NCBI GenBank assembly: GCA_002070095.1
Contig: MWCR01000013.1
Location: 1-38,495 of the forward strand
Reading direction: 5' to 3'
Source of the DNA: Parcubacteria group bacterium ADurb.Bin192
GTDB lineage: Bacteria; Patescibacteriota; Patescibacteriia; 2-12-FULL-60-25
Length of the DNA stretch: 38,495 nucleotides
Translations under genes and position numbers: made by a program
Notes under the pieces: model-generated
The model's input: only the letters and a program-made list of their open reading frames with translations
Told to the model about the DNA's origin: nothing
The model's database searches: none
Shown: positions 14,172-19,891 of the stretch, piece by piece
Numbering within the stretch: position 1 is the first letter of the stretch
How the letters are laid out: every line of letters begins with the position of its first letter

Positions 14172-14893
14172 GACTCTCTCCTCGTTGCACGGCTCTCTGG
14201 CCGCATTAGTTGCGTTCTGTCATTGCGAGGTCGCCCTGTCATCCTGATCGCAGTGAAGGATCTGGTGTGGACGACCGCGGTAACCTGCTAGTTTGTCATT
14301 CTGAACGCAGTGAAGAATCTGGTTCCTGAACGCAGTGAAGAATCTGGTTCGACTCTCTTGCATCCATCGTGACAGTTTTCATGCGGTAAAACCGCGGTCT
14401 ACCGGTTCCAGTGTCTTCAAAAATTATTTCTTCTGGATTATTTCCTTTCTTTGTCGAGGTCCGTCTTGATTGGCGGTCTGACCACCCCTTCTTACAAAAG
14501 GAGGGGGAGGAGGTGGTTTGATCGCCAATCAAGTTTTAATTACGCAAAATGCAAGGATTACAATTGGAAAAGGGTTTCCCGGCCCGTCCGGCCGGATGGT
14601 TGAATCCGGTCGAATATTTTTGGCATGAGGTAAGCCCTTGGTAATTTCCTTAGCTGTCAAAACGGTTGCCCGTCGTGCCGGGACCATTGCGTATGATCCG
14701 GGCGCGTCGAGTGAGCGCTCTGCCCAGGTGGAGGCGAGATTCATGGGTGTGACAATTGTCATCCACGAATATGTAAATATGCTTGATTTTTCTTCAAGTC
14801 CAGCCATAGCCGGAGTTAAGAAAGTCTCGCATATAAGCCCCGCGTCGCCGCGGAGTTACCCCTCCATTTGGCCGGAGCGCTCTGTCCAAAGAA
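14172..14893 (-). other. Long leader (~720 nt) of the orphan gene
   Basis: Transcription from the promoter at 14928-14900 would give a leader of about 720 nt. The distal part holds hairpins, for example GGATCA/TGGTCC (about 14700-14682) inside GCCCG/CGGGC, and CCGGAT/ATCCGG near 14613-14596. CAGAGCGCTC occurs twice (near 14878 and 14720). An 11-bp perfect helix CTTGATTGGCG/CGCCAATCAAG spans 14465-14533; on the plus strand it is followed by TTTT and could terminate there. The last 150 nt (14214-14360) are dispersed repeats (GTCATTGCGAG, three GAACGCAGTGAAGAATCTGG-like units). A 92-codon minus frame (14807-14529) has no ribosome site and is not called. Confidence 0.5.
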
Positions 14894-14899
14894 TCGCAA

Positions 14900-14928
14900 A
14901 ACTTAGCAGATATCCCGCTTTTTGTCAA
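14900..14928 (-). promoter_or_regulatory. Promoter of the orphan-gene unit
   Basis: On the minus strand TTGACA (14928-14923) and TAAGTT (14905-14900) are 17 bp apart. The promoter lies immediately inside the right inverted repeat. Confidence 0.6.
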
Positions 14929-14940
14929 GGGGCTCTGACA

Positions 14941-15172
14941 AACATGTAGCATGTAACATGTAGCATGTAACAACGTCCACAACTTCCCGCATCAAACTCA
15001 TCATGTCATTGCGAGCGAGTCCGACGAGTGTGGCAATCTATTAATAACCAATGCATCAATCACCAATAACCAATCACCAATTATTTAATGATCAATAATC
15101 AATTATTCATATTAGATTTCTGCCTTCCCGCTTCGTTAACCCAACTTCACATAAAGCTTCGATGGATTCAGC
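14941..15172. repeat. Right inverted repeat of the orphan-gene unit
   Basis: Reverse complement of 12664-12864, with about 30 bp extra (a second ATTGATTATTGATCA-like piece). It begins with the ATGTAGC/ATGTAAC block and ends with the TGGATTCAGC word. Together the repeats bracket 12865-14940, which holds exactly one promoter, leader, gene and terminator. Confidence 0.85.
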
Positions 15173-15287
15173 TTTGCGGGGCAGGCCGCGAGGAAAACGA
15201 AGTCGTTATGTCGTGGCTGGTTTGACGTAGGACGCTGTGGACGTGAGAGGACGTGATGGACGCTAGGTACGTGATGTACGTTAGTGG
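15173..15287. repeat. GGACGT-type degenerate tandem repeats
   Basis: GACGTAGGACGCTGTGGACG, GGACGTGATGGACGCTAGG and TACGTGATGTACGTTAGT: irregularly spaced copies of (G)GACGT. The same kind of array occurs at 34841-34960 and 37466-37625. Confidence 0.65.
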
Positions 15288-15470
15288 CTATTCCGTAAAA
15301 GTCTTCTTAGGGTGCTTTTCCTTACGGTTATAAGCCTTTTTATTCAGATGTAATTGGCTGGCCGGAGCGCTTGTTTTGCGGATTTTTTTATCCAATTGTT
15401 GCTTGTTTAAAGTCAAAATAAGCCCGTTTTTATTGGGTTTGGCGGTGGTATAGGCTTTTTGTTTAGGCAT
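15288..15470 (-). CDS. Possible small basic protein
   Basis: A 60-codon frame starting MPKQKAYTTAKPNKNGLILT, rich in Lys, Asn and Gln. It has no hydrophobic segment and no recognised family. There is no good ribosome site, but most genes here lack one. It lies just downstream of the end of ncRNA B on the same strand and could be read from the same promoter if that RNA does not terminate. Its composition is like that of real small basic ribosome- or nucleic-acid-binding proteins, but a 60-codon frame may occur by chance. Confidence 0.4.
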   Translation of the reverse strand: MPKQKAYTTAKPNKNGLILTLNKQQLDKKIRKTSAPASQLHLNKKAYNRKEKHPKKTFTE

Positions 15471-15488
15471 ATCAACTGCCTAAAGAAT

Positions 15489-15897
15489 ACAAAAATCCCT
15501 CGATAAAGTGAAGGGGGACCGCTTTTGAGGAGTACCTCGAGCGGTCGCGACGCTTTGCTTATGAATACCCAGTTTGCACCAGGTTAAGATAAGCTAGGCG
15601 TCTCTCAACGCGGAAGCCGCGTATGAGTTCTTCTCTCCTCCACTTTATTGAGGGATTGATTGCGCCGAGACGGTTATAGAGGTTATCCCGCCAGAGCGGG
15701 ATAGCGGTTCGCGTCAGCCGAAGCTTCGTGAACCATGGGGTTGTTGCTGACATCATGTTCCAGTCGAAACCGGATCATGAAGTCCTCCTTCCCCAATCTG
15801 CGACAGATCCATGTTTGGGTGCCGCAAGATTTTTTGCCGCCGCATGTCTGCGGGGTCCTCCTCTATAACTGTCCCGGCGAATTTATACTTTAAAGAA
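15489..15897 (-). ncRNA. Candidate structured ncRNA B (~400 nt, two domains)
   Basis: The minus strand has a consensus promoter (15932-15904) and then almost continuous helices. Domain I is closed by a 20-nt helix pairing 15879-15860 with 15682-15663 (19 of 20 pairs, including GU). Inside it are CCGCA/TGCGG, ATCTG/CAGAT, TCATG/CATGA, GTCAGC/GCTGAC (15751-15746 with 15718-15713) and ATCCCGC/GCGGGAT (15702-15696 with 15691-15685). Domain II is closed by a 17-bp helix (15657-15641 with 15510-15494) around ACGCGG/CCGCGT, GACGC..GCTTAT/ATAAGC..GCGTC and GACCGC..GAGG/CCTC..GCGGTC hairpins. TTTTT follows (15495-15491). No RNase P, tmRNA, SRP or rRNA core sequences were recognised. It is divergent from rpoBC. 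Confidence 0.65.
15683..15778 (-). CDS. Possible 31-residue peptide inside ncRNA B
   Basis: ATG at 15778 is preceded by GGAGGA (15788-15783), one of the best ribosome sites in the window, and the frame stops at 15683. It reads MIRFRLEHDVSNNPMVHEAS and ends RYPALAG. The frame overlaps the GTCAGC and ATCCCGC helices of domain I, so the apparent start signal may be chance within a purine-rich junction. Confidence 0.25.
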   Translation of the reverse strand: MIRFRLEHDVSNNPMVHEASADANRYPALAG

Positions 15898-15903
15898 CAA
15901 AAT

Positions 15904-15932
15904 AATATACCATAAAATTCAGATTTTGTCAA
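15904..15932 (-). promoter_or_regulatory. Strong promoter of ncRNA B
   Basis: On the minus strand TTGACA (15932-15927) and TATATT (15909-15904) are exactly 17 bp apart, the closest match to the sigma-70 consensus in the window. Palindromes at 15952-15991 lie 20-60 bp upstream. Confidence 0.75.
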
Positions 15933-15951
15933 GGGTTCTTGGCAGTGTTTT

Positions 15952-16044
15952 TTGGCTAATTTTAGCCAAAATAAATTGGCTAAGTTAAGCCTTTTTTGTC
16001 ACTTGTTTTGGGTGCCTGATAAAAAATAGACTGAAATTAGCCAA
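15952..16044. promoter_or_regulatory. TTGGCTAA palindromes between ncRNA B and rpoB promoters
   Basis: TTGGCTAATTTTAGCCAA (15952-15969) has 8-bp perfect arms. TTGGCTAAGTTAAGCC (15976-15991) is a near copy and TTAGCCAA (16037-16044) a half site. Both divergent promoters flank them. A fourth copy lies at 34067-34084 upstream of the ncRNA E promoter. They look like operators for a dimeric regulator. Confidence 0.5.
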
Positions 16045-16076
16045 AATAGTAGACAACAGTATGCACAGAGGATCTC

Positions 16077-16105
16077 TTGACTGTTCTTTACAAGAATGGA
16101 ATAAT
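16077..16105 (+). promoter_or_regulatory. rpoBC promoter
   Basis: TTGACT (16077-16082) and AATAAT (16100-16105) are 17 bp apart, giving a leader of about 320 nt before rpoB. A TATAAA at 16414-16419, about 10 bp before the ATG, might add a near-leaderless start, but it has no good -35 box. Confidence 0.55.
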
Positions 16106-16133
16106 TACGCGCGCGAACTAAATTTGACAGATG

Positions 16134-16288
16134 GGAAACGTACTGTTCTCGTTTCCTGCGCTTAATCCCGGCTTTTCATGAGCAGAGAATTGTCAGGATT
16201 AGAGCCAATTATTTAACTTGCCGGCCTAATGAGTACCTGCATTTAAATTATTCTTGTAAGAATCCTCCAAACAAAAAGGGGGATTTTT
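16134..16288 (+). promoter_or_regulatory. rpoBC leader with a terminator-like hairpin (possible attenuator)
   Basis: Three hairpins follow the promoter: GGAAACG/CGTTTCC (16134-16140 with 16150-16156), TAATCC/GGATTA (16163-16168 with 16196-16201), and AATCCTCC/GGGGGATT (16261-16268 with 16278-16285) followed by TTTTT. The last is an intrinsic-terminator shape 140 nt before rpoB. Some transcription would end here unless it is read through. Confidence 0.5.
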
Positions 16289-16429
16289 GCGTCCTGTCGG
16301 TTCGTCTGATTTTGTCATAATCCATTAAAAACCCTGTCATGGTTTCTGGCCACAGCCCTGCCCTACGCCCGTTCGGTCCGCGCGCGTGGGCCTGGCCGGT
16401 TATGATGATAGGCTATAAAAATTTTGTAC

Positions 16430-19400
16430 ATGCCTAAGCAGGTTTTCCGTCGTCAGCCCACGCAGGATACTGAACGACGCTACTTTACCGCCTCCCGCGA
16501 TGCCATGGCCTTGCCCGATCTTATCGAGGTCCAAAGGCAAAGCTACCGCTGGTTCTTGGAATCAGGTTTGAAAGAACTGTTTCAAGAAATTTCACCCATC
16601 CGCGATTTTATCGGCCGGGATCTGGAACTGTGGTTTACCGATTATCTGATCGATGAACCCAAATTCGATGAAAAGACTTCGAAGTTGAAAAATATTACCT
16701 TCGAAGCTCCTCTGCGCGTTAAAACCAAGCTATTGAATAAACGCACCGAGGAAAGCAAGGAACAGGAAATATATTTGGGCGATCTGCCGGTTATGACGGA
16801 TCGCGGTACTTTTGTCATCAACGGCATCGAGCGCGTGATCGTGTCCCAGCTGGTGCGTTCGGCCGGTGCCTTTTTTACGGCCGAAGTGGCCCGCGGCCGC
16901 CGGTATTACGGCGCCAAGGTGATTCCCAACCGCGGTGCTTGGCTGGAATTCGAAACCGATACCAATAATGTCATTTGGGTTAAAATCGACAGAAAGCGCA
17001 AAGTGGCTGCTTCCGCTTTGCTTAGAACTTTCGGTTTGACCACGGATGAAGATATCGTCGAGGCTTTCAAAGACACGGATATCCATCCTTTGAATAAGTA
17101 CATGGAATCAACCGTGGCCAAAGACGTGGCCAAGAATGAGGATGAGGGCAATATCGAGGTTTACAAACGCATCCGTCCCGGAGATCTGGCGACCGCGGAT
17201 AATGCCAAGTCTTTGATTCACTCCATGTTTTTCAAGTTTGAGCGTTATGATTTAGGTCCGGTTGGACGCTACAAATTCAATCAGCGTTTTGGCATGCCTT
17301 GGGATGATCAAATGGTGACCAAAGAAGAAAACCGCATTTTGTCCAAGGAAGATTTGATTTTGATTCTGAAAGAAATTATTCGTTTAAACAACACGCAGGA
17401 AGAACCGGATGATGTGGATCATTTGGGCAACAGGCGCGTGCGCGCCGTGGGTGAGCTTTTGCAAAGCCGTTTCCGCATCGGTTTGGCCCGCATGGAACGC
17501 ATCGTGAAAGACAGAATGTCCACTCAAGAAATTTCCACCTTGTCTCCCGGACGTTTGGTTAATGCCAGACCGGTTATCGGCGCGGTGCGCGAATTTTTCA
17601 TGTCATCACAATTGTCGCAGTTCATGGATCAGACCAATCCTTTATCCGAGCTGGAACATAAAAGGCGTTTGTCGGCCACGGGTCCGGGCGGCTTGTCGCG
17701 TGAAAGAGCGGGTTTTGAAGTGCGCGACGTGCATCGCACGCATTATGGCCGTATTTGTCCCATTCAATCACCGGAAGGTCCGAACATCGGTCTGGTGGGT
17801 CACATGGCCAGCTATTCCCGCATCAATGAATATGGTTTTGTGGAGACTCCCTACCGTAAAGTGAAAAATTGGGCTGACAACGACGGACAAGACGGCGTGG
17901 GTCATGTTTTGCGCGTGGAAGTACGCGACGGCGAAGGTAAGGCGGTGGCCAAGGCGGGCGAAGAAATCACCAAAGATCTGGCCAAGAAGATGGCCAAGGT
18001 TTCTATCAATAAATTGCCCATCGTGCCTATTGTTACTAATGAGATTGTTTATTTGAACGCTTTTACCGAAGAACGCGGAACCACGGCTCCGGCCACCACG
18101 CCCATTGCGCGTGACGGCCATTTTATGGTCGAAAGAACTCCGGCTCGTAAAAACGGAGAACCGACCATGGTGGATGTGCACGAAATAGATTATGTGGATG
18201 TCTCTTCCAAACAAATTTTATCCATCAGTACGTCGCTGATTCCGTTTGTGGAACATGATGATGGCCAGCGCGCGCTCATGGGATCCAACATGCAACGTCA
18301 GGCCGTGCCTTGTATCAAGCCCGAAGCTCCGATTGTGGGTACGGGTGTGGAAAGGCGCGCGGCGGTTGATTCGGGCCACGCTATTTTGGCTCCGGATGAC
18401 GGGGAAATTGTGGGCTTGTCCGCCAATTACATTGAATTGAAGGCCGAAGACGGCAAGATCCGCCGGTATGATTTGGTTAAGTTCCAAAGATCCAATCACT
18501 CCACTTGCTTGAATCAGAGAGTGCGGGTCAACAAGGGTCAGAAAGTTTACGCGGGCGAAGTTTTGGTGGACGGCACGTCTTGTGAAAAAGGTGAGATGGC
18601 TTTGGGTCAAAATCTTTTGTGCGCTTACATCATTTGGGACGGCTATAATTATGAGGACGGCATCATCTTGTCCGAGCGTTTGGTGCGCCAAGACAGATTC
18701 ACCTCCATCAACATCGAGCATTTCGTAATGGATGTGCGCGATACCAAGCTGGGTCCGGAAGTGGTGACCAGTGATATTCCCAATGTGTCTGAAGAAAAAC
18801 TCAAGAATTTGGATGAGAACGGCGTAGTGCGCATTGGAGCAGAGGTGAAATCCGGAGATATTTTGGTGGGTAAAATTACGCCCAAAGGTGAAACTGATTT
18901 ATCGGCCGAAGAAAAATTATTGCGTGCCATTTTCGGAGAAAAAGCCCGCGACGTGCGTGATACTTCATTGTATTTACAGCATGGCGCGCATGGTAAAGTG
19001 GTGGGTATTACGGTGTTTACGCGTGAAAACGGCGACAAGCTTCAGCCCGGTGTTTTAAAACGCATTGTGGTGGCCGTAGCTGACCTTAGAAAAATCCAAG
19101 TGGGAGATAAATTAGCCGGACGCCATGGCAACAAAGGCGTTATTTCACGTATCGTGCCTTTGGCCGACATGCCTTTCTTGGAAGACGGCACGCCGATTGA
19201 TGTTATTCTGTCTCCTTTGGGCGTGGTTTCTCGTATGAACTTGGGCCAGACGCTTGAGACACATATGGGTTTGGCGGCCAATGCTTTGGGTTATCGCGTG
19301 GCTACGCCCGTGTTTGACGGCGTGCCCGAAGCGACCATCCGCGAACAATTGGTGGAAGCCGGTTTCCCGGATACGGGCAAAATTAAATTGTATGACGGCA

Positions 19401-19891
19401 GAACCGGTGAAGCGTATGAATACGAACCCACGGTCGGTTATAACTACATGTTAAAACTGAACCACATGGTGGAGGACAAGATTCATCAACGTTCGATCGG
19501 CCCGTATTCTTTGATCACGCAGCAGCCCTTGGGAGGCAAGGCTCAATCCGGAGGACAGCGTTTCGGAGAAATGGAAGTTTGGTCATTGGAAGCTTACGGT
19601 GCGGCGCATACTCTGCAAGAAATTTTGACCATCAAATCTGACGATGTGCCCGGCAGATCCAAGGCTTATGAATCAATCATTAAGGATGAAAGGATTACCA
19701 AGGTGAACGTGCCCGAATCATTTAATGTCTTGGTGCGTGAATTGAAGGGCTTGTGTTTGGACGTTGAATTATTGAAGAACGGTCAACGCCTGGAAGAAGT
19801 CAAACCCGAGCATGTGGCTAAGCCGGCGGCTCCGGCCGCGGGCGATGACATGGCCTGGGATTCACAGCCGGATGAATTTAGAGCTTCCTAA
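16430..19891 (+). CDS. rpoB: RNA polymerase beta subunit
   Basis: 1153 residues from the ATG at 16430; the in-frame TTG at 16424 is not needed. It forms the catalytic core of RNA polymerase with RpoC. The rifampicin-pocket region [20 protein letters not shown] (about 393-412) continues [20 protein letters not shown] and [18 protein letters not shown]. The C-terminal clamp motif [20 protein letters not shown] is intact. In E. coli numbering Asp516, His526 and Ser531 are kept, but Leu533 is Thr. The protein is shorter than E. coli RpoB (1342), as usual outside Proteobacteria. rpoC follows after 14 bp. Confidence 0.98.

Follow-up and report, generated by a model that had tools for sequence, protein, structure and literature searches.

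A candidate noncoding RNA of two tandem structured modules, divergent from rpoB in Patescibacteria

Tandem riboswitches, such as those for glycine, place a pair of homologous structured modules on a single transcript. A further comparison is offered by the OLE, ROOL and GOLLD type of RNA; in PMC12286853, three ornate bacterial RNAs are described as forming homo-oligomers. The raiA motif RNA (ModT) is presented, in PMC11706538, as a structured noncoding RNA conserved across many species. Our literature search, which had most subscription journals and bioRxiv outside its reach, returned no RNA of such kind described for Patescibacteria.

The window, namely the whole stretch of 38,495 nt that was analysed (contig MWCR01000013.1 of Parcubacteria group bacterium ADurb.Bin192), belongs to a genome of 1.44 Mb in 69 contigs and contains the Pfam-confirmed rpoB gene at 16424-19891. 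A preliminary description of this DNA had proposed a two-domain structured RNA transcribed divergently from that gene. Based on the analyses described herein, we consider it probable (roughly 0.6) that the locus specifies a structured noncoding RNA of ~410 nt that has not been described before, is transcribed on its own, consists of two tandem copies of one ~160-nt module and acts in trans.

Promoter, fold and module organization

The predicted transcript and its parts are summarized in Table 1. The promoter agreed with the consensus at 11 of 12 positions and gave the top score of a promoter scan within 14400-16424; the preliminary description had placed a consensus promoter ahead of the RNA. 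At the opposite end, T3-T5 was likewise found after the module 2 closing helix in same-genus relatives, and a terminator-type scan at the window locus gave sites no more numerous than in shuffled sequence. No ORF of at least 80 aa overlapped the RNA interval; a protein-coding alternative was rejected, since the indels among relatives were not multiples of three and the longest ORF (among those of at least 30 aa) was of only 65 aa. Between the divergent promoters of rpoB and the RNA (15940-16000), repeated TTTGGCTAA/TTAGCCAAA boxes with an operator-like look were observed, which are also present in relatives.

The minimum free energy (MFE) of the minus strand was -193.7 kcal/mol (z -12.5); 100 dinucleotide shuffles gave -121.3 +/- 5.8 kcal/mol, and not one of them reached the native value. 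The plus strand also scored highly (z -10.4 against dinucleotide shuffles), as is expected for helices, and the strand was therefore settled by other evidence. The minus-strand fold together with the sequence reproduced the architecture proposed previously, that is, two closed branched domains followed by five T residues: the closing helix of domain 1, consisting of 9 bp, a 1x1 mismatch and 10 bp, encloses five hairpins, and that of domain 2, in which 20 of 21 pairs are standard, encloses three.

Table 1. Positions of the RNA features in the window
Feature	Position	Strand	Basis
Promoter	15904-15932	-	TTGACA (15932-15927), 17-nt spacer, TATATT (15909-15904); TG before -10 (extended -10)
Predicted noncoding transcript, ~407 nt	15491-15897	-	Start placed from -10 box, end from T tract
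Module 1 ("domain B")	15669-15873	-	Covariance-model match, 110.5 bits
Module 1 closing helix, 5' strand	15860-15879	-	MFE; compensatory pairs in alignment A1
Extra module 1 hairpin	15837-15855	-	Fold; not seen in any of the nine A1 relatives
H1: stem, small apical hairpin with CCCAAACAUGG, 3-nt bulge	15795-15831	-	Fold and covariation
H2: outer stem, internal loop, middle stem, apical UCCGGU-UUCG-ACUGGA hairpin with invariant G-U	15737-15794	-	Fold, covariation
H3 hairpin, CUUCG loop region	15706-15734	-	Fold; hairpin recurs in relatives' folds
H4 hairpin, in some relatives only	15684-15703	-	Fold, alignment
Module 1 closing helix, 3' strand	15663-15682	-	MFE; compensatory pairs in A1; partner 15860-15879
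Module 2 closing helix, 5' strand	15637-15657	-	Compensated positions counted across seven genomes
Module 2 ("domain A")	15502-15649	-	Covariance-model match, 38 bits, E 1.3e-8 in 4.1 kb
Module 2 closing helix, 3' strand	15494-15514	-	8 of 22 positions compensated, seven genomes; partner 15637-15657
TTTTT tract after helix closing module 2; probably terminator or 3' end	15491-15495	-	Sequence
Weak third module ("RNA-2")	14722-14872	-	13.6 bits in window; own promoter ~14928-14900

Covariance model R2 matched the window twice, at the positions of module 1 and of module 2, the latter being absent from its training set. By computation, domains 1 and 2 represent the same ~160-nt module, repeated in tandem, and the possibility that module 2 represents a different RNA was rejected because R2 matches it. 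The two domains of the preliminary description thus stand, but as copies of a reusable module and not as one bespoke RNA. Module 2 was also found in five relatives (L041-L044 and L046), and most loci of the larger set contained two modules, often spaced by 12-90 nt. In L041 and L042, which belong to the same genus as the window, the modules lie ~700-950 nt apart, and the spacer, lacking in the window, is GC-rich and apparently structured. A third, divergent module was detected further downstream in five same-genus genomes at 18.5-30.2 bits. In the window, the corresponding RNA-2 unit (14722-14928, minus strand) has the promoter TTGACA...TGCTAAGTT and precedes a fast-evolving ORF of 387 aa, for which no Pfam match was obtained.

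A general plan was shared by the modules: a closing helix GGAGG/CCUC, frequently with a C-A mismatch, is followed by H1, which bears a small apical hairpin, often with an AACA loop, plus a 3-nt bulge, then by H2, built of an outer, a middle and an apical stem, and by H3, frequently with a CUUCG loop. A bulged-G loop (AGUA/GAA) was considered as a defining feature and discarded; it is common in modules, but module 1 of the window has AGCA. The string CCGAACACGG in the modules resembles loop C of 5S rRNA, and mimicry of 5S rRNA was dropped as an explanation, given that CCGAACACGG forms a closed hairpin in the modules and no Rfam 5S match was found.

Covariation and distribution of the module

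The preliminary description had pointed to covariation in both closing helices as a check on its structure. In alignment A1, comprising ten copies of domain 1 (the window and nine relatives) aligned by sequence only, compensatory changes were observed in 20 of the 35 consensus pairs across 10 genomes, including pairs of the domain 1 closing helix. The aligned cells were paired at 92.7%, versus 76.8% in shuffles, and the covariation score was 0.485, versus 0.179 when shuffled and at most 0.123 when the partners were slid. With 54 modules, compensatory changes were found in 26 of 29 pairs. Because the MAFFT alignment A6 is shifted by one base between subgroups, pairs in the closing helix of module 2 were tallied directly; both-side changes were found at 8 of 22 positions over seven genomes, each of which retains 20-21 standard pairs.

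Furthermore, in an alignment of 78 modules, columns 178/231 were G-U and columns 179/230 were G-C in every module (78/78). Over all pairs of this alignment, which was fitted to a covariance model so that the G-U count leans in its favour, G-U outnumbered A-C by 245 to 52, and this excess pointed to the minus strand as the RNA strand. The invariant pair was also G-U in 10 of 10 copies in the sequence-only alignment A1. As judged by these comparative data, the RNA structure is evolutionarily conserved, beyond what a single-sequence fold can show.

Relatives of the RNA were collected in several ways. A DNA search gave partial matches in same-genus genomes, the string around UCCGGUUUCGACUGGA revealed further module copies, and a sequence pattern derived from the RNA hit four public records, three of them from a Patescibacteria group bacterium and one from a Candidatus Uhrbacteria bacterium; the relatives with named records are metagenome assemblies. 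With covariance model R1, the module was found in 32 of 41 family genomes and, within the class, also beyond family f1. Model R2, whose E-values like those of R1 are rough by construction, found it in 57 of 381 sampled class genomes distributed over 11 families, the relatives including Candidatus Uhrbacteria. A sample of 380 genomes from the phylum yielded 9 with the module, every one from the same class; both surveys are samples under stricter filters. Usually one module locus was present per genome, often with two copies. A viral origin was rejected, as none of the 24 viral contigs carrying the 16-mer holds a module. Because dozens of related genomes share the unit and preserve its base pairing, it is, in computation, a real new RNA family. 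The window displays the features by which we propose to recognize this family, namely the GGAGG/CCUC closing helix, H1, H2 with UCCGG/CUGGA and the G-U pair, R2 matches of 110.5 and 38 bits, and covarying base pairs.

Genomic context and alternative readings

At 49 of 59 loci, the 300 nt preceding the first module contained a TTGACA-type promoter on the same strand; for positions drawn at random from these loci, the figure was 4%. Of the 49 promoters, 23 sit 55-69 nt from the module. In six families (f1, f8, f15, f19, f55 and f93), the locus lies divergently to rpoB, and the rpoB-linked loci usually have nearby a RodZ-like gene and the window's 9115 gene, which by eye we take to be FtsK-like. 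From names that we read off the protein sequences, the locus presumably lies near frr and glyS in f40, and near lepA/murJ, proS or truB in other genomes. A hairpin with a T run was often observed between the promoter and module 1 in L047, L048, L049, L102, L103, L107, L112 and L113 and, in f46, in L141, L145 and L149; the hairpins in this interval sometimes have a repeated CGTCTCG/CGAGACG pair, which could form an alternative antiterminator-like helix. Structures resembling tRNA follow a module in L049, L102, L103, L106 and L107, and ARAGORN calls none of them. After the RNA in the window, at 15288-15470 on the minus strand, lies a basic ORF of 60 aa, MPKQKAYTT...RKEKHPKKTFTE, which recurs in several relatives with the motif IRK..PP...H..K..Y.RK.KHP and has a sub-threshold DUF7230 match only; it may be leaderless in some relatives, where it would have a promoter of its own.

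The main rival of a standalone RNA is a cis-acting leader of a lineage-specific operon, riboswitch-like or attenuator-like with tandem aptamers, in which module folding controls downstream read-through or translation. This reading would account for the many genomes outside the window's genus in which an ORF with a ribosome-binding-type sequence starts 36-550 nt after the module(s) with no terminator detected in between, and for the SD-preceded ORFs after module 2 in many f1 genomes. It is also favoured by L118, where two modules, each with its own promoter, stand ahead of an ORF, by attenuator-like hairpins with T runs between the promoter and module 1 at several loci, and by extended closing helices followed by T runs in some f40 loci. 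However, the nearest downstream ORFs across loci gave only five matching pairs in BLASTP, so that the conserved downstream function of tandem riboswitches was not seen, and the genomic context shifts between families. In the window's genus, moreover, the RNA probably ends in a T tract, and no SD-preceded ATG ORF of at least 50 aa starts within 600 nt downstream of it in the window. The module(s) of L114, L117, L119, L120 and L143 are also succeeded by hairpin-plus-T terminators, and clear ones end the RNA in several f40 genomes. Taken with these observations, a leader function appears possible but rather unlikely.

An assembly or scaffold made of RNA alone, as in the ornate type (OLE, ROOL, GOLLD), in which the repeated modules multimerise through loops, is improbable. 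Tandem repetition, compact branched folds and conserved loops would be compatible with it, as would the homo-oligomers described for three ornate bacterial RNAs in PMC12286853, but no conserved kissing-loop pair was identified and the RNA has no Rfam match to the OLE, ROOL and GOLLD families.

As for known families in general, Rfam 15 gave no family at the gathering threshold anywhere in the window, only irrelevant weak matches at E<5 in the region 15300-16100, and none at E<0.5 in the modules of eight loci, mostly relatives. The sole weak match near modules was a tRNA-Sec-like one outside them (25.5 bits, L073). The proposal of an undescribed noncoding RNA class was accordingly supported, there being no Rfam match and abundant covariation. 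That the RNA is a diverged form of a known housekeeping RNA (RNase P, tmRNA, 6S or SRP) is very improbable, in keeping with the preliminary description, which had failed to match it to any of the four. The RNase P RNA (RF00010) of the genome was located at C7:14186-14686 (176.7 bits), with none at the RNA locus, and its tmRNA (RF00023) at C3:29849-30242 (103.6 bits), with no tmRNA found by ARAGORN in the window. Identity with tmRNA, to which the shared string GGTTTCGAC had drawn attention, was rejected: the real tmRNA is on contig C3, and the hairpin in question is a UUCG-capped stem. The absence of a 6S RNA match (RF00013) in 19 genomes, including that of the window, and of an SRP RNA match (RF00169, RF01854) in the window's genome would leave those roles vacant by the Rfam models. 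The SRP result, however, counts weakly because the large-SRP control was silent in B. subtilis as well, 6S did not match at the locus either, and none of the hallmark layouts is seen in the tandem modules with their three hairpins or more. A functionless chance palindrome, repeat-derived sequence or mobile element is the least credible reading of all, for the high fold energy on both strands is outweighed by the compensatory changes, the rpoB synteny across families, the usual single locus per genome and the viral contigs devoid of modules.

Proposed mode of action and comparison with known systems

The trans-acting reading is favoured by conservation of the RNA amid shifting gene neighbours, together with the terminated forms, and we infer that the RNA is a standalone, probably trans-acting molecule. 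In the proposed mechanism, the strong extended -10 promoter would drive transcription away from rpoB, each module would fold alone, its closed helix bearing at least three hairpins, and the module 2 closing helix with the U tract would end the transcript in the window's genus. The released RNA would then act in trans. Its most conserved surface, made up of the apical UCCGG/CUGGA helix with the G-U pair, the AACA-type H1 hairpin with its 3-nt bulge and the GGAGG/CCUC closing helix, most likely serves to bind a conserved partner, either protein or RNA, and the duplication would offer two such sites. Whether the RNA belongs to a housekeeping-type trans-acting ribonucleoprotein, old in the class, with a role in transcription or translation that has no known bacterial RNA counterpart, can be suggested only tentatively. 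Bacterial noncoding RNA families this large and widespread are rare discoveries; about one-seventh of the sampled class genomes (57/381) have the module. The architecture, with two module copies, a G-U pair in every aligned copy and a strong promoter, is directly testable, and the covariance model is usable for annotation.

With tmRNA, the window RNA has in common a short string, GGUUUCGAC, in its H2 hairpin, probably by chance, whereas the tmRNA of the genome is on contig C3 and ARAGORN detects none in the window. Like the raiA motif RNA (ModT), it is a conserved structured noncoding RNA; the raiA motif, however, was described from Bacillota and other phyla, and the window RNA has no Rfam match. 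It resembles OLE, ROOL and GOLLD in being a large branched noncoding RNA with no protein product and a poorly known role, but differs from them in consisting of two tandem module copies without an Rfam match to those families and in being seen, among the genomes searched, only in one Patescibacteria class. Finally, paired homologous modules in one transcript are shared with tandem riboswitches, from which the window RNA is distinguished by its lack of an Rfam match, its unconserved downstream genes and the existence of terminated standalone forms.
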